NCBI GenBank assembly: GCA_028712505.1
Contig: JAQTQC010000012.1
Span: 1-46,374, forward strand
Reading direction: 5' to 3'
Length of the DNA: 46,374 nt
DNA from: Candidatus Omnitrophota bacterium
Lineage (GTDB): Bacteria; Omnitrophota; Gorgyraeia; Gygaellales; Profunditerraquicolaceae
Position 1 is the first letter of the stretch. The number at the start of each line of letters is the position of its first letter. Positions 4,851 through 18,954 of the stretch are shown here, piece after piece. The notes under the pieces were generated by a model that saw nothing but the letters and a program-made list of their open reading frames with translations, ran no database searches and was not told where the DNA came from. Position numbers and translations under genes: made by a program.

Positions 4851-5351
4851 ATGGAAAACTTAGAGTTATTACGATTTAGGCGTAGCATAAGGTTGTTCCA
4901 GGATAAGGCAATTCTGAAAGCGGATTTGGAAAAGATTGTTGATTGTGCCAGGTTTGCTCCCACAGCAAGAAATGTTCAGCCCTGGGAGTTTGTAGTGGTT
5001 ACAAGTAAACCTAAATTGACAGAACTATCCAGGTTAGCTGATAATGGCAGGTTTTTGGCCCAAGCGTCTGCTTGTATTGCGGTTTTTTGCGTTGATACAA
5101 AATATTATCTTGAAGATGGATGTGCTGCTACTTGCAATATTCTTTTGGCGGCTACGGCTCTGGGAATTGGTTCTTGTTGGGTGGCCGGAGATAAAAAAGC
5201 CTATTCTCAAGAAGTAAGTGTTTTACTTGGCCTGTCTTTAGGTATGAGATTAGTTAGCTTAGTTGCTCTAGGCTATCCTCAAGAGAAGGATGCTTTTAAG
5301 GCAATGCCCAAGAAGGATTTGGAAGAAATACTGCACTGGGAGAAATTTTAA
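4851..5351 (+). CDS. Nitroreductase family protein (FMN)
   Basis: A 166-residue single-domain nitroreductase-fold flavoprotein. The N-terminal RFRRSIRLFQD matches the family RRSxRxF phosphate-binding motif for FMN. A second family block is ARFAPTARNVQPWEFVVVTS. The central AATCNILLAATALGIGSCWVAG and the C-terminal LVALGYPQE are also typical. Substrates of such proteins range from quinones and nitroaromatics to dehydrogenation of biosynthetic intermediates, and none can be chosen from sequence alone. The stop overlaps the next ATG by one base (TAATG). Confidence 0.85.
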   Translation: MENLELLRFRRSIRLFQDKAILKADLEKIVDCARFAPTARNVQPWEFVVVTSKPKLTELSRLADNGRFLAQASACIAVFCVDTKYYLEDGCAATCNILLAATALGIGSCWVAGDKKAYSQEVSVLLGLSLGMRLVSLVALGYPQEKDAFKAMPKKDLEEILHWEKF

Positions 5352-5641
5352 TGCCACATATTTATTTATCGGGGCAGGCCGGGTGTTTGTTGCCCGTACT
5401 TATTGTTTTGAACCTATTCTTCGGTAAATTGATTTTTGAGTCTACCGGGTTATGGTTGACAATTGAGGCAATACTGATTTTGATTTTTATGCTTAAGATT
5501 AAATTTATGATCAGCCGGATCAGCCGGCAATTCTCTGCGGATGAACAGGATAGGGCTTCCCGGAGGTATAAGGCAGATAAAGGTATAATTGATGTTCCAG
5601 GGCAGGTAGTTGAAAATAGCGACCAAGACTTATTAAATTAA
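5351..5641 (+). CDS. Small two-helix membrane protein, unknown
   Basis: A 96-residue protein I do not recognise. It has two predicted membrane segments (about residues 10-28 and 32-50), then a charged tail (ISRISRQFSADEQDRASRRYKADKG) that by the positive-inside rule is likely cytoplasmic. Its ATG overlaps the stop of the nitroreductase gene, so it is translationally coupled to it. The glycosyltransferase gene follows after 12 bases. No motif points to a function. Confidence 0.6.
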   Translation: MPHIYLSGQAGCLLPVLIVLNLFFGKLIFESTGLWLTIEAILILIFMLKIKFMISRISRQFSADEQDRASRRYKADKGIIDVPGQVVENSDQDLLN

Positions 5642-5653
5642 CGGGTAACCAGG

Positions 5654-7168
5654 GTGGCAATTTTAAAGAAGTTGCAAGGTTTGGTCTCAAGGTTAACCTC
5701 GAATAGAGAGTTTTGGATGGTGTTGGCTATCTCGATCACTGCTTTAGCCTTGAGATTATATCATTTAGGAGCTAATGATCTTTGGTATGACGAAGTATAT
5801 AGTGTTTTGATTTCCAGGGATTCTTTTTCGATCTGGAATCCGCCGATCTATTTCGCTGTCTTACATTATTGGATCAAATTATTTGGTGTTTCCGAATTTT
5901 CCCTACGTTTTCCTTCCTTGATTTTCAGTGTCTTAAGCATTCCTTTTGTTTTTCTGCTTGGTAAAACAGTTTTTAACAGACGGGTCGGGTTTTACGCCTC
6001 GGTGATTATGTGTTTATCAAGTTTCCACCTATGGTATGCTCAAGAGGCCAGGCCTTACAGCTTAAGTGTGCTTTTGAGCATAATGTCAACTTACTACCTA
6101 TACCGTTTTTTGAAAGAAGAAAGGATTGGATTAGGTATTGTCTATGCCTTGGTTTCTGTATTCGGCTTGTATTCTGATGTAAGTCATTACCATTTGTTTT
6201 TGTTGTTGATCCAACTGTTTTCGGTAGCGATATTGACAAAGAGGCGTAATTATCTAAAATTGTTTCTTATTTTTTGCGCAATATCCTTGGTTTTTGCTTT
6301 ACGTTTAGAGTATTTTATTTCTAAATTAGCGTATATTAAGAATGGTTTTTGGATTCCTTCTCCGAGTTTAAAGTCATTGCTTTTCACATTGGAAAACTTT
6401 AACTTAGGGTATAACGTTTCTATCTGGTTGTATTGGTTTTCGGATTTTCTAGTTTTAATAATATTTGGTTTTGTATTTCTTGCCCTCTGGAAGGAAAAAG
6501 AAAATAGAAGAAGGCTGATTTTTATGCTACTTTTAGCATTCTTGCCGTTAGGATTGGCTTATGGTTTCTCTAAAATATTCTTCTCGGTTTACCTGGACCG
6601 GGCTTTCATTGTTTTTAGCCCGTATTATTATCTTTTAATCGGGTTTGGCCTGAATTACCTGAAGAACAAATGGCTAAAGATGGCCATCCTGTTTGCTTGT
6701 CTGGTAGCTTTATTTATCAGCCTATCCAGCTACTACCGCAACTTAATGCCTGTTGGCCCAGATCACCACAGTGGGGTTACTTTAAAGAAATCATTTAAGC
6801 CTGTTTTAAGGTTTATCGAAGATAATTTCCAGCCTGGCGATAGGATTATGCATACGAATTCTTCCCCCCGGGAAATTTTTGGTTTCTATTCCAGGAATAA
6901 GGAAGTACGCCAGGATTTCCTCTTTACATCGAAAATGGTCGATTCTGACTGGAATAGGCCATATAGACAGGGCCTGGGAGTTTTGAATGTGGACGATCTG
7001 GACTATGTCAATTTTCGTAGAATCTGGGTAGTTTCTTGCGATTGGCAGCGCGGAGAGAAATTAGATAAAAACTCTGAAGCTGTAAATTCTGAAATGCGCA
7101 GGAAGTACAAACTGGATTTGAGCCTGGAGTTTGACGGATTGTGGATATACAGGTATTTAAAGATTTAA
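5654..7168 (+). CDS. GT39/ArnT-like integral membrane glycosyltransferase
   Basis: A 504-residue polytopic membrane protein of the dolichyl/undecaprenyl-phosphate sugar-dependent GT-C class (PMT_2 domain). The first periplasmic loop carries the catalytic-type acidic pair Asp46-Glu47 in NDLWYDEVYS. NPPIYFAVLHYWIKLFG and LWYAQEARPYSL (about 126-137) are the standard following motifs. About ten membrane helices precede a C-terminal soluble part. It would transfer a sugar from a polyprenyl-phosphate donor to lipid, protein or glycan on the outer side of the inner membrane. The start is GTG with an ACCAGG-like weak upstream site. It leads into the NTP_transf_5 gene, suggesting a shared envelope or surface role. 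Confidence 0.8.
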   Translation: MAILKKLQGLVSRLTSNREFWMVLAISITALALRLYHLGANDLWYDEVYSVLISRDSFSIWNPPIYFAVLHYWIKLFGVSEFSLRFPSLIFSVLSIPFVFLLGKTVFNRRVGFYASVIMCLSSFHLWYAQEARPYSLSVLLSIMSTYYLYRFLKEERIGLGIVYALVSVFGLYSDVSHYHLFLLLIQLFSVAILTKRRNYLKLFLIFCAISLVFALRLEYFISKLAYIKNGFWIPSPSLKSLLFTLENFNLGYNVSIWLYWFSDFLVLIIFGFVFLALWKEKENRRRLIFMLLLAFLPLGLAYGFSKIFFSVYLDRAFIVFSPYYYLLIGFGLNYLKNKWLKMAILFACLVALFISLSSYYRNLMPVGPDHHSGVTLKKSFKPVLRFIEDNFQPGDRIMHTNSSPREIFGFYSRNKEVRQDFLFTSKMVDSDWNRPYRQGLGVLNVDDLDYVNFRRIWVVSCDWQRGEKLDKNSEAVNSEMRRKYKLDLSLEFDGLWIYRYLKI

Positions 7169-7174
7169 TTGACT

Positions 7175-8452
7175 ATGTCTAAAGCGGGCACGCGGTATAT
7201 TCAGGCAGGTAACTATTTGATTAATCGGGAAACAAAGTTGATTTCGCTGATTGCCCAATGGGTAATCAGCGACCGTAGGCCGCCGGAAATTAAAGAAATA
7301 TTGACTCAGGGGTCTATTGATTGGGGTTATTTTAACCAGCTCCTAACGTATCATGAATTTTATTCTTTTGCATATATCTGTCTTGGGGATTATCCTTCTT
7401 TAATTCCTGCCAGTGAAACCGATTTATTAAAAAAAGCCCATTATTATATTTTAGTCCAACTTGCCGATTTAGAGCATGAATTCCTAAAAGTTTCCGATAT
7501 TTTCCGGGAGCAGCAGATAGATTTTCTGCCGTTAAAGGGTATGGCTTTCCTGATTGATAATATGTATGGGAATAAAGCTGGTTTGAGGCCAATGGCAGAT
7601 ATTGACATTCTAATAAAAAAGGAATGTTTTCTGCGGGCTGAAAAATTGATTGAGGCCTTGGATTATCGGAAAGAGCTTTTCGGGCTGAAGGAAGATTATT
7701 GGAGAAAAAGAAACTACCATATTGCTTTTACAAGGAATAACAATAGTAAAAGGCTTCCCGTATTGATAGAGGTGCATTGGCTGTTAGATTATCCCGGAGA
7801 AAGATTGTTATTGCCGGATCTTTGGGAAAAGGTAAAAAAGATACAGTATGGCGATAAGGAATTTACGGTTTTAGCGGATGAAGATATGCTTTTTTGCTTA
7901 GCTTTGCATTTGCGCCGTTTCGGAAAAATCCTTTCTCTGAAATCAGCCTGTGATTTTGCTTGTATCCTGGTTAAAAATAAAGATTTAGATTGGGATTATA
8001 TTCTAAGGGAAGCCGAGAGAGGGCAGATGTGCGCCAGTTTGTATTACAGGCTTATCCAAGCCAATATTTTGTTTGGAATACAGGTGCCCGGAACGATACT
8101 AAGTGCTTTAAATCAACCTGGTTTTAAGCGGAATTTAATTGAAAGGTTTGTTTTAAGGAATACATTTTCTACTTCAGGCGATAAAGATAAAAGTGTCTTT
8201 TTGAAGAACCATCTTTTGGTATATGACAACCTTTGGAAACCAGTAAGCATGATAATGAATATTCCTCAGGAGCAATTTTCCAAGTTTTATCATTTGAATC
8301 CCTATGGCATAAGAACTTTACTTTTGTATCAGTTGAGATTTTTGTGTTATTTATTCCATTTATTTGTTTTGGTTCTAAGCGTAATTGCGGAAAGAATATC
8401 CAGTTTTTTTGTAAAACTGTTTCTAATGCGGCTGTCAAGTAAAAGATCTTAA
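7175..8452 (+). CDS. NTP_transf_5 family putative nucleotidyltransferase
   Basis: A protein of about 425 residues from the uncharacterised nucleotidyltransferase family (PF14907 type). The diagnostic block is FLPLKGMAFLIDNMYG followed by RPMADIDILIKKE, whose two Asp residues match metal-binding residues of the pol-beta fold. A second block, VLIEVHWLL, is also typical. Members often sit beside PqqD-like and HprK-like genes in surface-sugar and lasso-type peptide clusters, as here. Its target is unknown. I chose ATG 7175; the TTG at 7169 abuts the upstream stop. A strong promoter lies between this gene and the PqqD gene, so it may be made separately from the downstream operon. Confidence 0.75.
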   Translation: MSKAGTRYIQAGNYLINRETKLISLIAQWVISDRRPPEIKEILTQGSIDWGYFNQLLTYHEFYSFAYICLGDYPSLIPASETDLLKKAHYYILVQLADLEHEFLKVSDIFREQQIDFLPLKGMAFLIDNMYGNKAGLRPMADIDILIKKECFLRAEKLIEALDYRKELFGLKEDYWRKRNYHIAFTRNNNSKRLPVLIEVHWLLDYPGERLLLPDLWEKVKKIQYGDKEFTVLADEDMLFCLALHLRRFGKILSLKSACDFACILVKNKDLDWDYILREAERGQMCASLYYRLIQANILFGIQVPGTILSALNQPGFKRNLIERFVLRNTFSTSGDKDKSVFLKNHLLVYDNLWKPVSMIMNIPQEQFSKFYHLNPYGIRTLLLYQLRFLCYLFHLFVLVLSVIAERISSFFVKLFLMRLSSKRS

Positions 8453-8475
8453 ACTGTAAGCCTTTTCGAAAAAAC

Positions 8476-8504
8476 TTGCATAGCTGAATGAAAAAAGCTA
8501 TAAT
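8476..8504 (+). promoter_or_regulatory. Sigma-70-type promoter of the peptide-modification operon
   Basis: TTGCAT at 8476-8481, a 17-base spacer and a consensus TATAAT at 8499-8504. Transcription would start near 8511, giving a leader of about 87 bases before the PqqD-like gene. No terminator is visible between here and 18925, so this may drive the whole cluster. Confidence 0.65.
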
Positions 8505-8597
8505 TATAATGGCAAAATTTGATATTTAGCTTGATAGAGTAATGATTCGTTTAATATCTATTAGTAGTTTACTATAAAAGATATTTTGGGAGGATTT

Positions 8598-8936
8598 ATG
8601 GAATATTTAAAAAGATGTTATCAAAAGAGCCCTTCGGTTATCTCAAGAGCAGTCGGAAATGAAATAGTTTTGGTCCCGATTCAAGGAAATACTGCAAACT
8701 TGGAAGAGATATTTATGTTGAATGAAACGAGCGGGCGTATCTGGGGGTATATTGACGGAAAGAATTCAGTAGCGGAAATTAAAAAAATGGTTATCGATGA
8801 GTTTGATGTAACCCCGCAAGAAGCGCAAGCTGACATAATCGCATTTATCAAGAAATTAGAGAAGGAGGGGTGTATTAGTACTGCGGATACTAATAAGAAG
8901 GCACGCAAAGCTATTAAGGGGGGCAAAAATGCCTAA
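8598..8936 (+). CDS. PqqD-like peptide-recognition (RRE) protein
   Basis: A 112-residue PqqD-family protein. The motif order is typical: a beta-rich start (SPSVISRAVGNEIVLVPI), then FMLNETSGRIWGYIDGKNSVAEIKKMVIDEF, then a helical end (ADIIAFIKKLEKEGCI). In RiPP pathways this fold is the RRE that binds the leader peptide and presents it to modifying enzymes. The ATG at 8598 has GGGAGGA five bases upstream; the upstream TTG at 8586 falls in that site. Its 3' end overlaps by 8 bases the start of a 51-residue peptide gene, the expected place for a cognate substrate. Confidence 0.85.
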   Translation: MEYLKRCYQKSPSVISRAVGNEIVLVPIQGNTANLEEIFMLNETSGRIWGYIDGKNSVAEIKKMVIDEFDVTPQEAQADIIAFIKKLEKEGCISTADTNKKARKAIKGGKNA

Positions 8937-9084
8937 AAACATCAGACATAAGAAGCTCTATAAGAAGCCGGAAATGAATAAGGTGCAGTTAAATTCTCCA
9001 GAAGATACGGCTGCTGTTGTCGCTGCTGCAGTTGTTATTGGAGTTGTCGGGGCTTTGGTTGTTAGCACTCCTGCAAAAAGTTAA
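8929..9084 (+). CDS. Candidate RiPP precursor peptide, 51 residues
   Basis: A small gene overlapping the end of the PqqD-like gene by 8 bases, with AAGGGGGG just upstream of its ATG. The N-terminal half is basic and polar (MPKNIRHKKLYKKPEMNKVQ). It contains Y11-K-K-P14-E-M16, matching the YxxPx(L/M) element by which lasso-peptide leaders bind their PqqD-like RRE. After EDT (25-27) the C-terminal half is almost purely Val/Ala/Gly (VVAAAVVIGVVGALVV, 30-45) and ends STPAKS with a C-terminal Ser51. There is no Cys, and no acidic residue after Asp26, so lanthionine or lasso ring chemistry is unlikely. The alternative is a small membrane peptide. The gene itself is well supported; the precursor role is inference from position and leader motif. 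Confidence 0.7.
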   Translation: MPKNIRHKKLYKKPEMNKVQLNSPEDTAAVVAAAVVIGVVGALVVSTPAKS

Positions 9085-9118
9085 GTTTATAATCTAATTT
9101 ACGAGCTATGCAAAAAGA

Positions 9119-10138
9119 GTGAACTTAAGCTTTTTCTTAAATCATAAAATACAGAATAGATATCAGCAGAATTTAAGGATAGCAAACATTGATATTTCTG
9201 TAACCAGTCCGTATCCTACAGGCCGGATTATCTTTGGCAAAGCTTATCAAAATTTCTTCTATCCTTCTAAACACCCGGAAGCATCAATTCATACTTATTA
9301 CGGGGCAATACCTCAATTTACATTATTAGATAAATACCTGATTTCTGGAATAGAGGATATGTGGGGTATCTATTCGGTAGGCGGCAAGAAGGTCTTTGTT
9401 TTGCGGCCAATCAAATACAAAAAAGGTAAATTATCTATTTTTGTCAAAGGAAATATAAAAGACAATAAAGACGCTTTTTGTTTCAAACTCCGGCGAGATT
9501 ACGATATGAAGCCTGTAAAAACCAGGATATGCCAGCCGTTTAGGGTTGCCGTCTCTAAGCCTGATTTTACAGAATCTTCTGTTTTTATTGATTCTAAGCT
9601 GCCGTTTTCTTCTCTGGCTAACCCTTTAGGTTATCCTTTATTGGAATTGCTTTTACCGAATCTCTTATCTTCAAAGCGAGGCGTGCTTTTACATGCTTGC
9701 GGGGTAGTCGACAGGAATAAGGGGTATTTATTTTTAGGTCATTCCGGTTATGGAAAAACCACAATGGCAAAGTTATGGCGAGACAGTGGCGGGGTTATAC
9801 TGCACGATGACCTTATTCCCGTGCGAAAGGTTAATGGAACTTATTTAGCGTTTCCAATACCGGGATATGGTGCAACTTTTAGTAAAAAGCTTCTGCAAGG
9901 CGTTCCCGTAAGCAAGATTTTTTTCCTTTATCATAGCCCCCGTAATGTAGTTTCCCATAAAACTGGTATTCTTGCGGCAACCTTGCTTTTGCTACGTAGC
10001 CTGCAACCTACTCCTGATGTAAAATTAATAAAAAACATTCAGAATTTTTGTGCGCAAATAACTAAAACGATCCCCTGCTATTCTTTAGGTTTTGTTCCTG
10101 ATAGGCGAGTTCTGGATTTCATCCGCGAAATAAACTAA
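9119..10138 (+). CDS. HprK-like P-loop kinase
   Basis: A 339-residue protein resembling the HPr kinase-like proteins that accompany lasso-type peptide and surface-polysaccharide clusters. The N-terminal 170 residues are not conserved with classical HprK. The C-terminal half has GVLLHACGVV (188-197), Walker A GHSGYGKTT (207-215) and an acidic pair Asp230-Asp231 in ILHDDLIPV. The HPr-binding features of true HprK are not evident. Related tailoring kinases (PadeK in the paeninodin pathway) phosphorylate the C-terminal Ser of a peptide, and the adjacent candidate precursor ends in Ser. The start is GTG; an ATG at 9108 is out of frame. It lies 34 bases after the peptide gene. Confidence 0.75.
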   Translation: MNLSFFLNHKIQNRYQQNLRIANIDISVTSPYPTGRIIFGKAYQNFFYPSKHPEASIHTYYGAIPQFTLLDKYLISGIEDMWGIYSVGGKKVFVLRPIKYKKGKLSIFVKGNIKDNKDAFCFKLRRDYDMKPVKTRICQPFRVAVSKPDFTESSVFIDSKLPFSSLANPLGYPLLELLLPNLLSSKRGVLLHACGVVDRNKGYLFLGHSGYGKTTMAKLWRDSGGVILHDDLIPVRKVNGTYLAFPIPGYGATFSKKLLQGVPVSKIFFLYHSPRNVVSHKTGILAATLLLLRSLQPTPDVKLIKNIQNFCAQITKTIPCYSLGFVPDRRVLDFIREIN

Positions 10139-10142
10139 AAAA

Positions 10143-11063
10143 ATGAAGAAGCTGGACATGAACGAGTTTATGGAGTTGAGCGAAGAAGTTTTAAGTAGGG
10201 CGCTTAATCTTCGTTTTCGGATGAAGGGGACAAGCATGTTCCCTACTTTACAGGATGATGATATTATTATAATTAAAAAGTTTGATATTTCCAATATCCA
10301 TAATGGAGATATAATATTCTTTCGTCCTCCGTTTCATGAAGGAGTAACCCACCGGGTAATTAGAAAAGTTGATGTTAAGGGCAGACAGGCATTTATAACC
10401 AAGGGTGATTTTTGCCCGTTTTTTGACGGATATGTCTATCCGGAGCATATCCTTGGCCGGGTAGTGGCGATTGAAAGAAAGGGAAAAAGCATAAATCTTG
10501 ATAAGAAAACAACAATGCTGAAAGCTGCTTTTTATACCAGGATTATATGTTTTCAGGTGGGGGTTTATTCAGTTCTTAGAGGCTTGAGAAACCGGATATA
10601 TAAACTATTAGGGGTTTTATTAAGATTGTCGCAAAGGTTAAAAATTTACGATTTCTTCATTACTTTGTTTGCAGACACAAAGCCTATCACCTATCGACTT
10701 GCTTCGCATGATGATGCGCCTTTGTTGGCTCAGCTTTATAGCGCTTATTATTGGCCGGCGCGGACAAGGTTGCTTATCAGGTATTTGCAGCAATACCTCA
10801 AGGATGTTTCTAGGAACCAGGGGTATTGTTTTTTGTCCCAGAAAGGAAATAGGGTTATTGGTAGTGTGGCAGTCCAGAACTTTTCGTCGGATGAGTTAAT
10901 CCAGTCCGGTTGGACGGTTTGCAGTCCATTCGTAAATTGGCGTTACCGGGGAATGGGGATAGAAAACAAACTGGTGGAATTGGCAAAGCAGAAAGCGAAA
11001 GAGCAGGGGGCTGTAGAAATCAAGATGGCGCAATTTGATAAGACACATTTAACATTCAGCTAA
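10143..11063 (+). CDS. S26 signal-peptidase-like domain fused to a short GNAT domain
   Basis: A 306-residue two-domain protein. Residues about 20-115 form an S24/S26 peptidase domain with nucleophile Ser31 (MKGTSMFPTL), a basic-block equivalent THRVIRK with His70, and GDFCPFFDGYVYPEHILGRVVAIER. The Ser-His arrangement resembles archaeal/ER-type signal peptidases rather than the Ser-Lys bacterial type. A hydrophobic linker is followed from about 182 by a GNAT acetyltransferase domain with the acetyl-CoA loop R267-Y-R-G270-M-G272. The GNAT part stops after FDKTHLTFS, short of the usual final strand, so it looks C-terminally clipped. In this cluster the peptidase could remove a leader peptide; that is inference. 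It follows the kinase gene by 4 bases. Confidence 0.75.
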   Translation: MKKLDMNEFMELSEEVLSRALNLRFRMKGTSMFPTLQDDDIIIIKKFDISNIHNGDIIFFRPPFHEGVTHRVIRKVDVKGRQAFITKGDFCPFFDGYVYPEHILGRVVAIERKGKSINLDKKTTMLKAAFYTRIICFQVGVYSVLRGLRNRIYKLLGVLLRLSQRLKIYDFFITLFADTKPITYRLASHDDAPLLAQLYSAYYWPARTRLLIRYLQQYLKDVSRNQGYCFLSQKGNRVIGSVAVQNFSSDELIQSGWTVCSPFVNWRYRGMGIENKLVELAKQKAKEQGAVEIKMAQFDKTHLTFS

Positions 11064-11072
11064 TAATATAGG

Positions 11073-13328
11073 ATGAAAGCCTCTAAAATTAAAAATCCAG
11101 AAATAGTTTTTATCTGTCCGCGGTTTTACGTGAGCCGGTCGTTTACGCTCAGCCTGGGAGTGAGTTATATTCAAGCCTATCTGCTGGAGAAAGGTATACG
11201 AGCTCCGCAGATTGCCCAGAAAGACTTCAACGTATATTCGTTGGTTGACGATATATTGAAACATAACTCCCCTCTGGTGGGTATTACCTGCTACGATACG
11301 ACTTATTACGTTGTAAAAATAATCTCCCAGCTTTTAAAAACCAAGCGGCCGGGTATAAAAATTGTTGTCGGCGGCCCGACAGCTTCTTCTTCTGATGAAT
11401 TGATTATGAATGATTGCCCGCAGATAGATTTTTGCGTCCGGGGAGAAGGCGAGTATACTGTCTATGAACTTATCCGGTTTCTTAGAGGAGGTATCCCAAT
11501 AGAAGGGATCAACGGGTTAACTTATCGTAAAAACAAGAAAATTATTGTGAATCCAGATCGTCTTTTGATAAAAGATGTGTCTCAAAGAGGCTCAGAATTA
11601 GACATCTTGCCTTCGCCATATTTGAAAGGGATCTTGTCTGGTGGGGAGGGGGCCGGGTTGTTGACTTCCAGAGGATGTCTGTTCAAATGCACTTACTGCA
11701 GCGCTCCTCCGATTACGCAATCTACTGTGAGGTATCATTCTACTGAAAGGATAATTTCTGAACTAAGAAAGATACATGATGCTATTGCGCCTGCCCAAAG
11801 GCCTAATTACCGGGTTTCGATTTGGGATGATAATTTTGCCTCGAATACCGAACGGTCAAAACAAATTTGTAAGGCGATAATCGATAATAAATTAAATGAC
11901 TTGATTTATTATAGCGAACTTCGCGCGGATAGGACGGATAAAGATTTATTGGAGTTATTGTTTGCAGCCGGTTTCCGGCATGTAAATTTTGGTTTGGAAA
12001 GTGCTGTTCCGAGAATATTGAGAAACGTGAAGAAGTTGTATTGTTCCGATATCCCCTATGCTAATATGCGCCGGGAAGAGAAATACCTGGAAAAGATAAA
12101 AGAGAATGTCAAGTTAGCCAAGGCAATGGGCATAACCCCCACTGTCAGCGTAATCTTGGGGTTACCGGGGGAAACTCTTGAGGATGGCAAGAAAACCGTT
12201 GAATTCGTTAGGGAATTGGGAATCAAGAGTTATTACCATAACCATTTAATTCTATTTCCGAAGACAGAATTATACAACACGCGGAAAAAATTCGGTTTGC
12301 AAATCAGGAAGTCAGACGATATACTTCCCTGTTTTGTAAAACATACCTATGATATTTTCAAGATTCCCTATGGAAGCAATTCGTTTGAATCCAAGTTGTA
12401 TTATATGGTGTCCTGTTATTTCACGGAAGTTGTCTTTGGTTCTTGGGGAAGTCTTTCGGAGAGAGGTCTATTTTCTTATCCTGCTATTATATTTAACAAT
12501 TTTCAACAGTGGGACAATGACGCTTTATTTGAATGGATCAGGAAGAATATGATAATATCCGCCCCGCTTTGTTTTATTTACCGGCAGGATTTATACAAGC
12601 CGCATTTCTCAAAAACATTGCGCAGACTTATGGTCACTAAAAGCATACCTACAAGAGAGTGTTATTGCTTGACCACTGATAATTATACGAAGAATAACAT
12701 TGGATTAGAGAAATTCAAATTGCTTACAAAAGTTAAGCCGCAGCATAAGAGTCTGTATCCTTTTTCCTTTGAAATAATATCTCTTTCTCAGGCTGATAAA
12801 CTAAACTTTGAGCCTAAGCAGGGACTGGAAAAAGAATCCGAGGTTATCGTTTCGCTGGAGACCGCTGAGGATGTAGGGATATTCAAAAAATTGATTAGCG
12901 CGCCGGTGGAAAATCCGGAAGAAAGTTTATTGGCCAGACTTATCAGTCTGAAGGCTTCTTTTGTGGATGGCTGCAGGTGGCTGGATAAACCCTGTCCGGC
13001 TCTCGAACTTAAAAAGATGTTTGTGCAACCAGATAACACCATAAAACCCTGTATGCATGGCGGATTAATTGGGAAAGTAGGTCAAAATCATGATAAAATA
13101 GCCATAAACTTAAGAAAAAAATTTGAAAAGCTTCAAAAAGAGAGAGGGTGCAAGACTTGTCCGGCGAATAATAGATGTTCAAAATGTTTCTTTCCACATC
13201 CAATGAGTGTTAGAGAATATTGTAGTGTGCGTAGAAGTAGCCCTCATATAAGTAAGATTATAAGGTTATTGGTTATTATGAAGGATTTGGAATTACAAAG
13301 ATCAATGGGGGTCTTGGTAAATGTTTAA
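11073..13328 (+). CDS. B12-binding-type radical SAM protein with SPASM-like Cys tail
   Basis: A 751-residue protein. The N-terminal cobalamin-binding-type Rossmann domain runs to about 160 (ICPRFY, IVVGGPTAS, CVRGEGEYTVYELI). It lacks the base-off DxHxxG motif, as many class B members do. The radical SAM core carries C202-x3-C206-x2-C209 (RGCLFKCTYCS). A long C-terminal extension ends in a Cys cluster C660, C693-x2-C696-x5-C702-x2-C705 and C717, close to the SPASM pattern for auxiliary iron-sulfur clusters. B12-type plus SPASM-like in one chain is uncommon and suggests peptide modification. Possible chemistries are C-methylation or carbon-centred crosslinking; neither can be assigned. It lies 9 bases after the peptidase-GNAT gene. 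Confidence 0.8.
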   Translation: MKASKIKNPEIVFICPRFYVSRSFTLSLGVSYIQAYLLEKGIRAPQIAQKDFNVYSLVDDILKHNSPLVGITCYDTTYYVVKIISQLLKTKRPGIKIVVGGPTASSSDELIMNDCPQIDFCVRGEGEYTVYELIRFLRGGIPIEGINGLTYRKNKKIIVNPDRLLIKDVSQRGSELDILPSPYLKGILSGGEGAGLLTSRGCLFKCTYCSAPPITQSTVRYHSTERIISELRKIHDAIAPAQRPNYRVSIWDDNFASNTERSKQICKAIIDNKLNDLIYYSELRADRTDKDLLELLFAAGFRHVNFGLESAVPRILRNVKKLYCSDIPYANMRREEKYLEKIKENVKLAKAMGITPTVSVILGLPGETLEDGKKTVEFVRELGIKSYYHNHLILFPKTELYNTRKKFGLQIRKSDDILPCFVKHTYDIFKIPYGSNSFESKLYYMVSCYFTEVVFGSWGSLSERGLFSYPAIIFNNFQQWDNDALFEWIRKNMIISAPLCFIYRQDLYKPHFSKTLRRLMVTKSIPTRECYCLTTDNYTKNNIGLEKFKLLTKVKPQHKSLYPFSFEIISLSQADKLNFEPKQGLEKESEVIVSLETAEDVGIFKKLISAPVENPEESLLARLISLKASFVDGCRWLDKPCPALELKKMFVQPDNTIKPCMHGGLIGKVGQNHDKIAINLRKKFEKLQKERGCKTCPANNRCSKCFFPHPMSVREYCSVRRSSPHISKIIRLLVIMKDLELQRSMGVLVNV

Positions 13329-13343
13329 GCAGGGGGCCTGGGA

Positions 13344-15116
13344 ATGAAAATATGTCTGGTAAATTCTAATATTTCCCAAAAAGGCAGCGATGGGGATATG
13401 CAAATAGTTAATTTCCAGAGGGGATTCTTAAGTCTGGCTGCTTTTTTAGAGAAGAACGGCTATGCCGTGAATGTTGTTGATTTAGGCTGGCTGTATAAAC
13501 AGGGTAAATTGGAAATCAATGCTGATTTTCATCGGAATGCCGCAAAACACATAATTAAACAGGGAATCAATTTAATCGGCTTTAATACTCGTTGTGATAC
13601 ATATCCGAATGTTGTAAACTTAGCCAGGAAATGCAAGGAACTGAATCCCAATGCAACTATTATCTTTGGGGGGCCGCAAGCCAGTTTTACAGATGAAGAA
13701 ACTCTAAAGAAACTTCCTTTTGTAGATATAGTTGTTAGGGGGGAGGGGGAATATACCCTTCTTGAGTTAGCCAATGCTTTAAATGCAAATAAGCCTTTGA
13801 CGAATATCCAGGGGATCACGTATAGGGAGAATGGCCGGGTGATCCGGAATATAGATCGGGAGCATATTAAAGACTTGGATTCGCTGCCGCTTCCAGCATA
13901 TCATTTAATAGATAAATATATCCGGAGTGATGATAAACTGCTGTTTAAATATTTCTGCGCTTACCTGGAAACAGGTAGAGGTTGCCCATATAGATGCACA
14001 TTTTGCGGCAGTACCCTGATGGACCGTAATCATAACCGGTTAAGGAGCCCGCAAGAGATTATTAAAGAAATTATACTTTTGAAGAATAAGTATCACTTCA
14101 ATTATTTTATTTTTGGGCACGATCATTTCTTAGCTAATAAAAAAATGGTCAAGAGAATATGTAGGTCTATTGTAGCTAAAAAGCTGGATATTAAATGGAC
14201 TTGCAGTTCAAGAGTGGATGCTATAGGTATGCTTGATGAGAAGTTATTAGAAACAATGTCTAAAGCCGGATGCGTAGGTATATTTTTTGGTGTCGAATCC
14301 GGGTCTCAGCGCATACAGAAAATCATCCGGAAGAATATAAACGTTTCTTTGGTTCCTGAGGTTATCCAGGAATGTCAAAAGCATGGTATTTACGCAAGGG
14401 CGGCATTTATTATGGGCTTTCCTGAGGAGACAAGGGAGGATATGAACGCAACATTAGAATTGGCTTTAAAGTGTCGCCAAATTAAGAAGTGTGAACCACA
14501 TATCCGTCTTCTCGGGCCGATGGCAGGGACAGATATATTTGCTAGAAATAAAGACCGGTTAGTATTTACGGGTTTCCGCTCAGACATGTCTGGAGGCCCG
14601 TTGGTAAATCTGAAAAGTAATATGGATTTAGCCAAGAAATATCCTTCATTGTTTAGTGTTTTTTATGTAGTTAAGCCCAGGCATGTTCCGACAACTCTTC
14701 CTAATGAAGCGGTTACTACCTTTGTTAAACTCCTCTATACTTATCCTATGTCAACTTATCTGGGGATTAAAGAATTAAAAATTACACCTTTAGATTTATT
14801 AGAAGAATTAAAGAAGTGGGCTAAGAAGAAAGGTTCTGGAAGCAGCAAAAAATCTAGCATTATTAAGAATCTGGAAAGCAAAAAATATTTTCCCCTGTTT
14901 TTAAAATATTTGTATGAACGCAATAAAGTATCGTTTGATTTTCTAAAGCCGATTACAGCCGCTGAAGAAGGAAAATGCGAGAAATATATCCGGCAGAGTA
15001 AGCTGTTGCATAGGTATATAAGAGAGAAGAGCGCTTTTAAATCAAACACAATATTGAGAAAGATGTATGAAACAATGCATTTTGATAATACTGCGAGAAT
15101 CAGAGAAGCCGCTTGA
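13344..15116 (+). CDS. B12-binding-type radical SAM protein
   Basis: A 590-residue protein of the class B cobalamin-binding radical SAM family. The B12-type domain contains INLIGFNTRCDTYPN, IIFGGPQASF and VRGEGEYTLLELA. The 4Fe-4S motif is C214-x3-C218-x2-C221 in GRGCPYRCTFCGS. A GxESGS element (GIFFGVESGSQRIQK) and the AAFIMGFPEET block are family hallmarks. The C-terminal 130 residues are Lys-rich with no Cys cluster, unlike its upstream neighbour. It lacks a clear DxHxxG. Members methylate unactivated carbons or rearrange carbon skeletons. The ATG follows AGGGGGCCTGGGA by a few bases. It sits 15 bases from the upstream radical SAM gene, and its stop overlaps the next reading frame. Confidence 0.82.
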   Translation: MKICLVNSNISQKGSDGDMQIVNFQRGFLSLAAFLEKNGYAVNVVDLGWLYKQGKLEINADFHRNAAKHIIKQGINLIGFNTRCDTYPNVVNLARKCKELNPNATIIFGGPQASFTDEETLKKLPFVDIVVRGEGEYTLLELANALNANKPLTNIQGITYRENGRVIRNIDREHIKDLDSLPLPAYHLIDKYIRSDDKLLFKYFCAYLETGRGCPYRCTFCGSTLMDRNHNRLRSPQEIIKEIILLKNKYHFNYFIFGHDHFLANKKMVKRICRSIVAKKLDIKWTCSSRVDAIGMLDEKLLETMSKAGCVGIFFGVESGSQRIQKIIRKNINVSLVPEVIQECQKHGIYARAAFIMGFPEETREDMNATLELALKCRQIKKCEPHIRLLGPMAGTDIFARNKDRLVFTGFRSDMSGGPLVNLKSNMDLAKKYPSLFSVFYVVKPRHVPTTLPNEAVTTFVKLLYTYPMSTYLGIKELKITPLDLLEELKKWAKKKGSGSSKKSSIIKNLESKKYFPLFLKYLYERNKVSFDFLKPITAAEEGKCEKYIRQSKLLHRYIREKSAFKSNTILRKMYETMHFDNTARIREAA

Positions 15117-15139
15117 TAAATGTTTTAAGGAAAAAGCTT

Positions 15140-16129
15140 ATGTTTGATATTATCCAGGAGAGGTTCAGGGATTTCAGGATGCCCATCCTTTGCGGGATAG
15201 CAATAACCCGCAGGTGCAATCAAAAATGCTTATATTGTCAAGTTTGGGATACAGAACACCATGAGCTAAAGACAAAAGAAGCCCTTTCGATCATAAAACA
15301 ATTATCAGAATTAGGGATGCACCGATTCTGTCTTACGGGCGGGGAACCCCTGTTGAGAGAAGATATTGGCCGGATTATAAATTTTGCGTATAATAAAAAT
15401 ATGAAGGTTGAAGTAAGCTCTAACGGGTCTTTGGTAAAGAACAGAATATCGGATTTAAAAGGGGTGCAAGTGCTTTGTATCAGCCTGGATGGTCCGGAGC
15501 ATATACATGATAGCGTGAGGGGCAGGGGGTCGTTTAAAAAAGTCATCGAAGCGGCTGATATCGCAAGGAAAAAAAATATCGCGGTGTCTTTTCGCTCGGT
15601 TATATCCAAGATGAACTTTAGGTATGTCGATGCTATTTTGAATATAGCTAAAGATCTCAAAATGAATTTTATTTTCCAACCGGTGACCCCGATAATCTTA
15701 GGGACGCATCGCATAAATCCCTTGGCTGCATCTTTAGATGAATACAGGCAGGCATTCGCCAAACTAATAGCCAAAAAAGAAAAAGGGAATAAATTTATTC
15801 TTAATTCTTTGGCAGGGTTGAAATATTTTTACGGGCATTTGCACGGTTGGCCAAAACCCAAGAAGATGTTCTGTATCTCGGGGAGGGTTTTATTCCATAT
15901 TGAGCCGGATGGCATACTTTATCCCTGTATTAATGGGTCTGCTTGCGATACCCGGGGTTTAAGAGGTAGGGATTGTTTGAAGTTGGGGGTAAAAGAAGCT
16001 ATTAGAAGTCTGCGTGTGCCGGATTGTGCCGGTTGCTGGAATGCTGCAAGTTTTGAATTAAATTATTCGGTTGCTCTTTTACTCAAGAAGCAGGGAAATT
16101 TCTTGTCAGGAGTAAGATATTTTTGTTGA
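15140..16129 (+). CDS. Radical SAM/SPASM peptide-modifying enzyme
   Basis: A radical SAM protein of about 329 residues with C26-x3-C30-x2-C33 (RRCNQKCLYCQVWD) and the SAM-binding FCLTGGEPLL block. A C-terminal SPASM-type Cys set is at C245, C263, C269, C279, C296 and C299 (GILYPCING, CAGCW). Such enzymes (PqqE, AlbA, MoaA-like SPASM proteins) make carbon-carbon or thioether bonds on peptides, usually guided by a PqqD-like partner, which is encoded earlier in this operon. I chose ATG 15140 because TAAGGA lies 8 bases upstream; a TTG at 15113 overlaps the previous stop. Substrate assignment to the 51-residue peptide is inference. Confidence 0.82.
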   Translation: MFDIIQERFRDFRMPILCGIAITRRCNQKCLYCQVWDTEHHELKTKEALSIIKQLSELGMHRFCLTGGEPLLREDIGRIINFAYNKNMKVEVSSNGSLVKNRISDLKGVQVLCISLDGPEHIHDSVRGRGSFKKVIEAADIARKKNIAVSFRSVISKMNFRYVDAILNIAKDLKMNFIFQPVTPIILGTHRINPLAASLDEYRQAFAKLIAKKEKGNKFILNSLAGLKYFYGHLHGWPKPKKMFCISGRVLFHIEPDGILYPCINGSACDTRGLRGRDCLKLGVKEAIRSLRVPDCAGCWNAASFELNYSVALLLKKQGNFLSGVRYFC

Positions 16130-16186
16130 TAATAAAGATAAAGGGATTGGCTTAACCTTTTTAATTGGATATTAAAGGAGGGAAAA

Positions 16187-17314
16187 ATGGAAAGAAAAAA
16201 AGTAATAATCTATTTATCCATACTTGTTTCAGCCATCATCCTGGCTGGTGTCTGGGCAGGTTCAACGATATTTCATAAACAGGAGGCTTCGGTCTATTTT
16301 CAGAAGGCTATCCAACTGAAGACTGAGGGGGGAAATAAATGGAAGGAAACTAATGTTCAGGGGGCTTTGGCGGATTACGAGAAGGCTTTAGCTATGTTCC
16401 AATTGATCGCTAAGCGTTATCCTGAATGGAAAACCGAGTCTGGTTCTTTATCTGATTTGATCAAGAGTTGCGAAGAGGCGATAAAGTCATGTGGTAGGGC
16501 CAAGAGGACAAATGAAGCAACAGCTATAATTAACCGCGGACATGCTTATCTGGAAAAACAAAAATATAACGAAGCCTTGTCTGAGTATAAGATTGTGTTG
16601 GATGAATATGGGGATATTCCTCGAAACTGCTGTATAGCTCAGTTGTATACGGGTATTGTTTGCCAACAGATAGGGCAGCAGGAGGAAGCAATAAGAAGAT
16701 ACAAAATAGTTCTGGATGAGCATGGTGACCAGGCGGAACTTTGTGCAATAGCACAGACTTATCTGGGGGTTGCTTATTATCAGCTCGGTGATTACGAGAA
16801 TGCTCTTAGTGCATACCAGGCAGCTTTAAAAATTAACCGGGAGTATCGGCAGTTAAGTGCCCAGTCTTTAGCTGGAATCGGTGAGATATACCGGACAATG
16901 GGCAAATATGAAGAGGCGCGCAGCGCATTCCAGGATCTGATAGCCCAATATCCGGATTCCATCCAGGCTAAGGCTATTGCAAATGTAATCGATGTTCTCC
17001 CTTTGGAGTCGTGGAAGGAAAATATCGATCAGTCTGCGAATGTTAAACAGGGTGTTGCCATAACCCAGAAATTTTTGTCCGATCAGATATCACAAAAAGA
17101 TTTCCAGAGAATGCTTGTTGCTTTGGATGAAAAAAACAAAAATGATGCCCTTTATGTGATCGGCTTGAAATATCAAACAAAAGGGGAACTGGGGGAAGCA
17201 AAGAAATATTATAAAGAATGTGTTGCAATGTCTACGGCAGATGGGGATCAGGATGTTGCGTATCAGGCAGCGGTAAAGGCGTTGGAAGATATTGCAAAAC
17301 AAGAAGATGATTAA
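16187..17314 (+). CDS. Membrane-anchored TPR protein
   Basis: A 375-residue protein with an N-terminal membrane anchor (about residues 7-26, IYLSILVSAIILAGVWAGS) and a periplasmic-type helical body of tetratricopeptide repeats. Examples are AIINRGHAYLEKQKYNEALSEY, QLYTGIVCQQIGQQEEAIRRY, QTYLGVAYYQLGDYENALSAY and GIGEIYRTMGKYEEARSAF. TPR arrays are scaffolds, so it may hold the export or processing complex at the membrane. AAAGGAGGG precedes the ATG. It lies 57 bases after the SPASM gene, the largest gap inside the cluster, and 9 bases before the ABC genes. No enzymatic motif is present. Confidence 0.78.
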   Translation: MERKKVIIYLSILVSAIILAGVWAGSTIFHKQEASVYFQKAIQLKTEGGNKWKETNVQGALADYEKALAMFQLIAKRYPEWKTESGSLSDLIKSCEEAIKSCGRAKRTNEATAIINRGHAYLEKQKYNEALSEYKIVLDEYGDIPRNCCIAQLYTGIVCQQIGQQEEAIRRYKIVLDEHGDQAELCAIAQTYLGVAYYQLGDYENALSAYQAALKINREYRQLSAQSLAGIGEIYRTMGKYEEARSAFQDLIAQYPDSIQAKAIANVIDVLPLESWKENIDQSANVKQGVAITQKFLSDQISQKDFQRMLVALDEKNKNDALYVIGLKYQTKGELGEAKKYYKECVAMSTADGDQDVAYQAAVKALEDIAKQEDD

Positions 17315-17323
17315 AATAAGCTG

Positions 17324-18106
17324 ATGCCTTTTATCGTAGAAGCATATAATTTAAGCAAGGAATTCAAACAAGCCCAGCCGTTAAACAATCCTTTTTCTTT
17401 TCTTGGGAGAACAAAGACTGCTCTGGCTGTAGATAATATTAATCTCCAGATTGAGAAAGGGGAACTTTTTGGCATCCTCGGAGAGAATGGGGCTGGAAAG
17501 ACTACTTTAATAAAGATGCTCTGTTGTCTTATACTGCCTAGCCGGGGTACAGCCAAGGTATCGGGATTGGATATTTATAGTGATGGAGAGAAAATTAAAT
17601 CAATAATCGGTTTAGCCGGCAGCGATGAACGAAGTTTTTACTGGAGACTGACGGGTAGGCAAAACTTACAATTTTTTGCCAGTTTGTACAATCTTTCTTC
17701 TCTGCAAGCAAAATCAAGGATAGGGGAAGTAGCTGATTTTTTGGAAATCGAAGGGTTGGATAAAGTTTTTCAGGAATGTTCTGCGGGGGTTAAACAGAAG
17801 CTAGCTTTAGCCAGGGCCTTAATTAATGATCCGCAAATCTTATTTTTGGATGAGCCGACTAAAAGCCTTGATCCTGATGCTGCCTGGAATTTAAGGGAGT
17901 TTATCAAAAATAAACTTGTTGGCCAGCAGAATAAAACTGTTTTCTTTGCCACGCATAATTTAGAAGAAGCAGAATACTTATCTGACCGTTTGGCGATTAT
18001 GAATAAGGGGCAAATTAAAGTTCTAGGTGACATTAACGAACTGAGGGCGATGATGGGAGGAGTTCCCGCTACCTTAAAAGAAATTTTCAGTTGTTTTGCC
18101 AGATAA
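17324..18106 (+). CDS. ABC-2-type transporter, ATP-binding subunit
   Basis: A 260-residue ABC ATPase of the drug/polysaccharide/peptide exporter type. Walker A is GENGAGKTT (53-61). The signature is the ABC-2-class variant CSAGVKQKLALARAL (from about 152). Walker B is ILFLDEPTKSLD (about 172-183). The switch His lies in FFATHNLEEAE. A short N-terminal insert (FKQAQPLNNPFSFLGRTKTAL) resembles that of ABC-2 exporters next to modification clusters. It pairs with the permease 3 bases downstream and is the likely export motor for the cluster's product. Confidence 0.9.
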   Translation: MPFIVEAYNLSKEFKQAQPLNNPFSFLGRTKTALAVDNINLQIEKGELFGILGENGAGKTTLIKMLCCLILPSRGTAKVSGLDIYSDGEKIKSIIGLAGSDERSFYWRLTGRQNLQFFASLYNLSSLQAKSRIGEVADFLEIEGLDKVFQECSAGVKQKLALARALINDPQILFLDEPTKSLDPDAAWNLREFIKNKLVGQQNKTVFFATHNLEEAEYLSDRLAIMNKGQIKVLGDINELRAMMGGVPATLKEIFSCFAR

Positions 18107-18109
18107 AGA

Positions 18110-18925
18110 ATGAAAATATCTCTTGATAAATCAATAGCCTTTATTAAAAAAGATATACTTGTTGAGTTTAGTTATAAGCTACAATTTGTTTTAAGCTGGG
18201 TAGGGATATTTCTTTCGGTGTTGATATTTTATTATATCTCAAGGCTTTTTGGAAAAATAGAAAGCCCATACCTGGCAGAATATGGGGGTGAATATTTCCC
18301 CTTTGTTTTTATCGGAATAATGCTTTCTGGGTATCTGGCATTAGCATTAGGAAGTTTTTCTGTCAATATAAGGAATGAACAATTGACAGGGACATTGGAG
18401 GCAATGTTTGTCACCCCTGCAAAACCCTCTACGATAATTTCTTCTATCTCCCTTTGGAATTTTATTTTTAATTCCATAAGTATCGTTATTTACCTGCTAT
18501 GCGGCATTCTTATCTTTGGTATCAACTTAAGTCAGGCGAATTTTATAGGTGCTTTTATAATTTTATTCCTTACTATCCTATCTTTAAGTAGCATAGGTAT
18601 AATTTCTGCCGCTTTTACGATGGTTTTTAAAAGGGGAGATCCCATTGCTTGGTTGCTAAATCTGTCTTCTGCCTTCTTTTCTGGGGTGTATTTTCCGGTA
18701 AATATACTTCCGGATAACCTCCGGATTGTTTCTAATCTTATACCTGTGACCTATTCTTTAAGGGGGTTAAGGAACGCGTTATTACTTGGCCAGGGTTTCA
18801 AAGTCTTGATGCCGGATATAGTTATTTTGTTTATCTTTTGCCTGGTATTGCTGCCTTTGAGCCTGTTGATATTCAACTATGCCACGAAAAAGTCAAAGAT
18901 AACAGGCAGTCTGGCCCATTATTAA
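18110..18925 (+). CDS. ABC-2-type transporter, permease subunit
   Basis: A 271-residue integral membrane protein with about six helices and the ABC-2 permease layout. A cytoplasmic N-terminus (FIKKDILVEFSYKLQFVLSWVGIF) is followed by the conserved ELTGTLEAMFVTP-like element (here EQLTGTLEAMFVTPAKPS). Near the end is SSAFFSGVYFPVNILPDNLRIVSNLIPVTYSLRGLRNALL, the typical ABC-2 block. It is coupled to the ATPase gene by a 3-base gap and closes the cluster. A new promoter follows within 30 bases and I see no terminator between. Confidence 0.9.
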   Translation: MKISLDKSIAFIKKDILVEFSYKLQFVLSWVGIFLSVLIFYYISRLFGKIESPYLAEYGGEYFPFVFIGIMLSGYLALALGSFSVNIRNEQLTGTLEAMFVTPAKPSTIISSISLWNFIFNSISIVIYLLCGILIFGINLSQANFIGAFIILFLTILSLSSIGIISAAFTMVFKRGDPIAWLLNLSSAFFSGVYFPVNILPDNLRIVSNLIPVTYSLRGLRNALLLGQGFKVLMPDIVILFIFCLVLLPLSLLIFNYATKKSKITGSLAHY

Positions 18926-18954
18926 ATCTATTCGTTTTGCAAGCGTAATTATTA

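Follow-up and report, generated by a model that had tools for sequence, protein, structure and literature searches.

We propose that a gene island in the 46,374-nucleotide contig JAQTQC010000012.1 (GenBank assembly GCA_028712505.1) of a Candidatus Omnitrophota bacterium, a stretch that we call the window throughout, encodes a linear ribosomally synthesized and post-translationally modified peptide (RiPP) that would be guided through its maturation by a RiPP recognition element (RRE), methylated on carbon, phosphorylated at its C terminus, possibly glycosylated, cut after Thr27 and exported. We put the probability of this reading at about 0.68. The gene set, the homology of the precursor, the C-terminal Ser of its family, the intact catalytic residues and the insertion of the island as a unit can be read from the DNA itself, and we infer every chemical step.

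In the proposed pathway, a discrete PqqD-type RRE (gene at 8598) would bind the Y11-K-K-P14 segment of the leader and present the precursor to the other enzymes. Two B12-dependent radical S-adenosylmethionine (SAM) enzymes, A and B, would methylate unactivated carbons of core Val, Ile, Leu and Ala residues by PoyC-like chemistry, and a third, unassigned radical SAM enzyme would make one further change. An HprK-like kinase would phosphorylate the C-terminal Ser51, and an NTP transferase, perhaps with a PMT_2 enzyme, may put a sugar on that phosphate. Cleavage after Thr27 would fall to an archaeal-type S26 peptidase, a membrane-anchored TPR protein would keep the assembly at the membrane, and an ABC-2 transporter would export the 24-residue product.

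The precursor peptide and its relatives

The 51-residue frame at the centre of the island is very probably a RiPP precursor, because a leader hidden Markov model (HMM) drawn from other genomes ranks it first and because precursors that match it accompany the same enzymes in relatives. The HMM was built from 31 peptides of other genomes, with the window excluded, and places the frame first among the 405 open reading frames (ORFs) of the window (E=8.8e-5; runner-up 0.12), where it detects no second precursor; a peptide profile finds no other leader-bearing ORF in the organism's own genome. The precursor has no Pfam or NCBIfam match. Its leader, residues 1-27, contains a Y11-x-x-P14 motif (Y11-K-K-P14) and T27, and the predicted core, residues 28-51 (AAVVAAAVVIGVVGALVVSTPAKS), is free of Cys, Tyr and Trp, contains nine Val/Ile residues and ends in Ser51.

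Of 58 related genomes, 24 contain relatives of the kinase gene. Every related sequence derives from a metagenome-assembled genome (MAG); several contigs are short, and one bin, from Chloroflexi, may be mis-assigned. The kinase-relative loci mostly hold a PqqD protein, an S26 peptidase, a SPASM- or B12-type radical SAM enzyme and short ORFs with a common leader, approximately K-[Y/W/F]-x-x-P-x-[hydrophobic] followed by an ...EEAVL-type end. The closest relatives of the enzymes also have the closest peptides. The preliminary description of this DNA had called the region a RiPP cluster, an assignment that these data bear out, and had named two patterns that would speak against it, a frame not conserved among relatives and radical SAM genes that travel with polysaccharide genes and no peptide. 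Neither was found: the frame has counterparts in same-enzyme loci on sufficiently long contigs, and a small peptide with the leader is present in nearly all radical SAM/HprK loci of relatives.

Matching precursors accompany the same enzymes in two Omnitrophota loci, L063 (genome G001) and L062 (G066), and in two adjacent modules of the Chloroflexi MAG (L111). L063 combines TPR and PqqD genes, a 54-residue peptide, an orthologue of enzyme B at 45% identity and a SPASM radical SAM enzyme; L062 has a 52-residue peptide, a kinase, a TPR gene and an enzyme B orthologue at 48%. The Chloroflexi MAG encodes three homologues of enzyme B (36-37%), and its modules stand in tandem: one has a 75-residue ORF (Gly/Val core), a kinase and an enzyme A homologue, the other a 61-residue peptide (Ala/Val/Gly core), PqqD, a kinase and an enzyme A homologue; the enzyme A homologues are 38% identical to that of the window (526-536 bits). 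The nearest relatives of the window peptide share 34-45% protein identity with it, and the 45% identical L063 peptide ends, as it does, in TPAKS. The similarity between the window and L063 cores is reached by 0 of 5000 shuffles; that between the window and Chloroflexi cores is modest (97 of 5000), and the Chloroflexi cores of this B12 lineage are Cys-free and aliphatic, like that of the window. By these sequence comparisons, the 51-residue frame is kept with its enzymes across a long evolutionary distance. Homologues of enzyme B at 30-39% identity in L064-L072 were set aside as different B12-type radical SAM enzymes, since their loci hold no RRE or leader peptide.

Other arrangements were seen in the wider family. 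In loci L101 (G331:C64) and L103 (G212:C5), three to six precursor-like peptides are encoded in tandem; their leader reads ...LNPEQAVLSCCD or similar and their cores differ greatly. A compact cassette of PqqD, SPASM radical SAM enzyme, Cys-containing precursor, HprK-like protein and S26 peptidase (L097-L100, L102, L104, L105, L109) spans several Omnitrophota families, seems both undescribed and wider in its distribution than the B12 type. L119 (G157:C9) is a large cluster with several PqqD domains, some of them fused to GT2 glycosyltransferases, an enzyme A homologue, four very short precursors and no detected kinase.

Genes of the island and predicted chemistry

The ten genes from the RRE to the permease lie on the + strand at 8598-18925 with spacings of -8 to 57 bp, in agreement with the preliminary description, which had gaps mostly under 60 bp; two genes upstream complete the island.

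5654-7168, +: PMT_2-type membrane glycosyltransferase, probable sugar-adding enzyme (Pfam PMT_2, 55 bits)
7169-8452, +: NTP_transf_5, LppN/PsmN-type nucleotidyltransferase (Pfam, 132 bits against a cutoff of 31)
8598-8936, +: PqqD-type discrete RRE, predicted leader-binding protein (Pfam PqqD, 59.8 bits; cutoff 23.4)
8929-9084, +: probable precursor peptide, 51 residues (leader HMM and homology to the L063 and L111 peptides)
9119-10138, +: HprK-like kinase (homologue profile, conserved residues, AlphaFold model)
10143-11063, +: archaeal-type signal peptidase S26 fused to a GNAT acetyltransferase (TIGR02228; Pfam Peptidase_S26, Acetyltransf_1)
11073-13328, +: B12-binding radical SAM enzyme A, with a Cys-rich C-terminal extension (Pfam B12-binding 60 bits, Radical_SAM 66.5 bits)
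13344-15116, +: B12-binding radical SAM enzyme B, ApyD-like (Pfam Radical_SAM and B12-binding; ApyD model 291 bits)
15113-16129, +: third radical SAM enzyme, PqqE/ScmE-like (Pfam Radical_SAM, 79.6 bits)
16187-17314, +: TPR protein with an N-terminal membrane anchor (TPR Pfam matches)
17324-18106, +: ABC ATPase (ABC_tran, 94 bits)
18110-18925, +: ABC-2 permease (ABC2_membrane, 52-57 bits)

The domains first assigned to the PqqD, S26-GNAT, two B12-type radical SAM, TPR and ABC-2 proteins hold, and the SPASM label given to the third radical SAM enzyme holds only in part: that protein has no Pfam SPASM match, and its SPASM-type C terminus is reduced to a shortened Cys pattern. The PqqD protein is the sole one in its genome, its profile matches the TbiB1 lasso RRE structure 5v1u (E=3e-9), and its start is the ATG at 8598, preceded by a GGGAGG ribosome-binding site; the peptide ATG has AAGGGGGG 5 bp upstream. 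Sixteen ORFs homologous to NTP_transf_5 occur in related RiPP loci. The ABC ATPase and ABC-2 permease have homologues at 38-52% identity in seven RiPP loci (L033, L034, L035, L038, L039, L045, L119), a recurrence that supports the earlier suggestion of an exported product.

The nearest folds to enzyme A are CysS, TsrM, TokK and MgmA, a match taken from the N-terminal part only, the AlphaFold model being poor in the C-terminal half. For enzyme B, the nearest curated model is that of ApyD (NF050148; 291 bits over residues 1-462, short of the 750 cutoff) and the nearest PDB entry is MgmA 9ccb (E=2e-28). The third enzyme, with CxxxCxxC intact, scores 94.7 bits with the ScmE model, below its cutoff of 400, and no PoyD-type epimerase model is among its 25 best. 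These nearest relatives of enzymes A and B are methyltransferases. ApyD, a Cβ-methyltransferase, makes β-methyltyrosine (PMC10635010) and PoyC β-methylates Val (PMC5682303). From the homology of the B12-type enzymes it is reasonable to infer that the product would be modified on carbon. Granted that the rest of the reading is right, methylation of aliphatic core side chains would be the best single guess, one that we hold somewhat more readily than its converse, because the core has nine Val/Ile residues and no Cys, Tyr or Trp.

The S26 domain passes TIGR02228 (58.1 bits against 51.85) and conserves catalytic S31, H70 and D89. Its fusion to GNAT is seen only in the window; in the other aligned loci S26 stands alone. 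A Thr follows the leader Tyr at a distance of 16 residues in the peptides of the window and L063 and in both of those from L111; in L062 the distance is 15. In the Linear Polyphosphorylated Peptides (LPP) pathway, LppS, assisted by an RRE, cleaves on the C-terminal side of a Thr (Thr(-1)) placed at roughly this distance (PMC13381572). By analogy, cleavage after Thr27 is predicted, which would give a product of 24 residues.

The HprK-like label for the kinase also stands. The protein alone has no Pfam match, and a profile of its 16 homologues finds the HPr kinase 1ko7 (E=1.2e-5), with 5 of the 16 matching Hpr_kinase_C. The AlphaFold model (predicted local distance difference test score, pLDDT, 83) matches PEPCK, a fold related to that of HprK. 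H192 and K213 are invariant in the 16 homologues and HDD is present, so the His-Lys-Asp-Asp motif of lasso kinases, as given in PMC9266682, is retained. A C-terminal Ser is the target of paeninodin kinases, and in pseudomycoidin the NTP transferase attaches a hexose to the phospho-Ser (PMC9266682). Among 44 intact kinase-linked precursors of at least 40 residues, 37 end in Ser, where 6.4 are expected from their own core composition (0 of 100000 simulated sets reach this count); 29 of 35 loci have at least one Ser-ending precursor, and only 6.7% of long ORFs in the same loci end in Ser. None of the four leader-bearing peptides of L119, which has no detected kinase, does so, a weak control given that the other loci of this sort are mostly short pieces in which several peptides end in Ser. 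The case for C-terminal Ser phosphorylation, as judged from these sequences, is strong for the precursor family as a whole. For Ser51 of the window peptide it is moderate, because the L062 precursor ends in Ala, that of L111b ends in Thr and LppK uses core Ser3; the third residue of the core predicted for the window peptide (AAVV...) is not Ser. The functions of LppK, LppS and PsmN are experimentally established in these related systems (PMC13381572, PMC9266682). In L040, L041 and L042, kinase homology falls within ORFs of ~650 residues, which suggests an HprK-like domain fused to another domain in a subgroup with WxxP leaders.

Known systems and alternative explanations

The closest described system is LPP, encoded by lppAKBSDN in Paenibacillus alginolyticus (Popov et al., Nat Commun 2026, PMC13381572), which is described as restricted to Bacillota in a report that nowhere mentions radical SAM enzymes or Omnitrophota. 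The two share a discrete RRE, an HprK-like kinase, an archaeal-type S26 peptidase, an NTP transferase and an exporter, as well as a YxxP leader with Thr before the cut (predicted in the island), no cyclase among the cluster genes and, as predicted for the island, a linear product. However, LPP clusters have no radical SAM enzymes, whereas the island has three; the LPP exporter is MsbA-like, whereas that of the island is a separate ABC ATPase and ABC-2 permease (MsbA-length ABC genes occur in other Omnitrophota cassettes); the LPP leader, YxxPxVLxHQxIxFETxxS, is longer, whereas that of the island has YxxPx[hydrophobic] and a similarly spaced Thr but not HQxIxFE; and LPP are multiply phosphorylated at core Ser3, whereas the island family has a C-terminal Ser. 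Because the MsbA-like exporter and the full leader consensus are lacking, we do not file the island as an LPP member; we regard it as a variant with radical SAM enzymes that is related to both LPP and paeninodin. The RRE, the kinase and the NTP transferase, initially described as lasso-type accessories, instead form the LPP core set together with the S26 peptidase (PMC13381572), and the proposal of a new RiPP class needs dividing accordingly: this core set is known from LPP, and the novelty lies in the added radical SAM enzymes, the aliphatic core and the phylum.

With paeninodin and pseudomycoidin (PMC9266682) the island has in common an HprK-like kinase (acting on a C-terminal Ser there, and predicted to do so here), an NTP transferase of the type that adds hexose to phospho-Ser there and a B1-type RRE, but those systems include a B2 peptidase and a lasso cyclase and have no radical SAM enzymes. 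The SynChlorMet cassette (NCBIfam ScmC, ScmD, ScmE, ScmF), for which no publication was found in the open-access PMC literature, is matched weakly by the kinase, PqqD and third radical SAM proteins, and membership was rejected on scores of 22.5, 37 and 94.7 bits for ScmC, ScmD and ScmE against cutoffs of 125, 100 and 400. The island resembles polytheonamide (poy) in its two B12-type radical SAM enzymes (PoyB and PoyC there), in the methylation of aliphatic residues, which is predicted here, and in a core rich in Gly, Val and Ala. In proteusins the leader is long and a radical SAM epimerase is present. The island differs in its 27-residue YxxP leader, discrete RRE, kinase and S26 peptidase, and it was not placed among proteusins, its 51-residue precursor having a leader of ~27 residues and no long nitrile-hydratase-type leader. 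Aminopyruvatide (apy, PMC10635010) shares ApyD, the closest curated model to enzyme B, but has a P450, an MNIO, a methyltransferase and a Tyr-Leu-Tyr-Asp core. In a Cariaco Basin survey, PqqD-like genes and radical SAM enzymes figure in biosynthetic gene clusters generally and Omnitrophota are among the phyla that express such clusters; island-type cassettes are not described in the parts consulted. We raise only tentatively, as an idea that could well be wrong, that the B12-type loci form a separate Omnitrophota/Chloroflexota RiPP class, in which RRE-guided, Cys-free Gly/Val/Ala cores would be C-methylated on many carbons by paired B12-type radical SAM enzymes into polytheonamide-like, perhaps membrane-inserting products, with a phospho-sugar cap placed on the C-terminal Ser by a lasso-type kinase and an NTP transferase.

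Several observations weigh against the pathway that we propose. The Chloroflexi surroundings, over the 19 kb read, hold no S26, TPR or exporter homologue, B12-type loci are few (four genomes, several on short contigs) and the L062 core holds six Cys. The L062 and L111b precursors, which end in Ala and Thr, show that even within the B12 lineage some members lack a C-terminal Ser, and LppK acts on a core Ser rather than the C terminus (PMC13381572). Scores with the ApyD and ScmE models fall well short of the cutoffs, and B12-type radical SAM enzymes also carry out chemistry other than methylation. The same RiPP might be cross-linked, cyclised, epimerised or dehydrogenated by these enzymes to give a macrocycle or a D-amino-acid peptide, an outcome made conceivable by the presence in the superfamily of BchE (ring closure) and OxsB (ring contraction), both of which were matched, and by the Cys-rich cores of related SPASM-only cassettes, which suggest other chemistry elsewhere in the family. 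We nevertheless consider it unlikely, given that the nearest folds and solved relatives are mostly methyltransferases, that ApyD is one too and that the best models for the third enzyme include no PoyD-type epimerase.

More distant readings would take the peptide, or its fate, to be something else. Residues 28-47 resemble a single transmembrane helix by composition and the core is unusually hydrophobic for the family, as might be expected of a small membrane protein, such as a subunit or chaperone, with the true substrate encoded elsewhere; this is quite improbable, since the leader motif is homologous to that of precursors with wholly different, polar cores, one Chloroflexi core alternates Gly and Val, unlike a packed helix, the gene sits between those of the RRE and the kinase, and neither the window nor the genome yields another leader-bearing ORF by the searches above. 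A lasso-peptide pathway completed by a cyclase and B2 peptidase elsewhere would account for PqqD, the HprK-like kinase and NTP_transf_5, all of them paeninodin/pseudomycoidin genes. It has very little in its favour beyond this: the 92.7% complete genome has no Transglut_core3 (B2) gene, for which lasso membership was rejected, and just one PqqD, the core as predicted offers no Asp or Glu for ring closure, and the S26 peptidase occupies the place of B2, as in LPP. An asparagine-synthetase-like lasso cyclase is absent among the island genes, the rest of the genome not having been searched for one. Finally, the PMT_2 gene within the island, the GT2/GT9 genes in related loci and the position of LPP clusters inside capsule loci (PMC13381572) could point to a locus, equipped with radical SAM enzymes, that makes a surface polysaccharide or glycolipid and to which the peptide is irrelevant. 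The constant elements among relatives are, however, the RRE, kinase and peptide and not glycosyltransferases, and the twelve island genes include no polymerase, flippase or sugar-nucleotide pathway, which leaves this account with scant credibility.

Insertion site and significance

The cluster is larger than the unit of 8476-18925 originally delimited. Eleven genomes of the same genus carry an empty site, nitroreductase - small ORF - H+-pyrophosphatase, in which 360-460 bp separate the nitroreductase gene from that of the pyrophosphatase, and the limits of the island at ~5642-18944 (+; 13.3 kb, twelve genes) and the inclusion of PMT_2 and NTP_transf_5 with the ten downstream genes follow from it. 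The left edge is the stop of a conserved 96-residue ORF (5351-5641) and the right edge is the pyrophosphatase promoter; in all four siblings aligned, homology upstream of the pyrophosphatase restarts at 18945. Siblings share the order Memo - RsmE - methylthiotransferase - 4HBT - nitroreductase - small ORF -> H+-pyrophosphatase, scored over as much of the block as each contig holds. Judged from this comparison, the cluster is an addition that entered the genome as one unit. Island G+C (35-42%) does not differ clearly from that of the flanks and no tRNA was found at the edges, so the case for insertion rests on the empty site. The strong single promoter first proposed is weakly evidenced: a TATAAT at about 8499 is paired with a -35 box matching 3 of 6 positions, and the region has about as many promoter-like sites as chance would give (31 against 29.2 expected).

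Directly upstream of the same pyrophosphatase (window 19051; 93% identical), sibling G026 (L027, G026:C52) has a different RiPP cluster, with a Cys-rich core, so the site appears to accept different clusters and may be one where peptide clusters are exchanged. At this site sibling G022 carries a GT2-like gene and a homologue of PMT_2 but no RiPP, for which reason PMT_2 might be older than the remainder of the island; counter to this, PMT_2 homologues adjoin NTP_transf_5 in two other RiPP loci (L025, L040), and a further homologue is present in L041. Near the start of the window, a TIR-domain gene (24-491; ThsB-like, Pfam PF08937, 39 bits) lies upstream of Memo/AMMECR1 and is a possible defence gene; its homologue in G022 (L128 2673-3140) is 85% identical.

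A type of peptide pathway described only from Bacillota is here extended to uncultured Omnitrophota and Chloroflexota. What is new, as far as the sequences tell, is that this branch adds radical SAM enzymes and that its kinase-linked precursors mostly end in Ser. Lasso-type peptide phosphorylation would thus be joined with B12-type radical SAM carbon modification, a combination that we did not find in the open-access PMC literature. The precursor is short and expressible, its leader is clear, and both the cut and the phosphosite are predicted, which makes the chemistry directly testable. Across the family, the leader and kinase stay constant while modifying enzymes and cores swap, once at the same chromosomal site.

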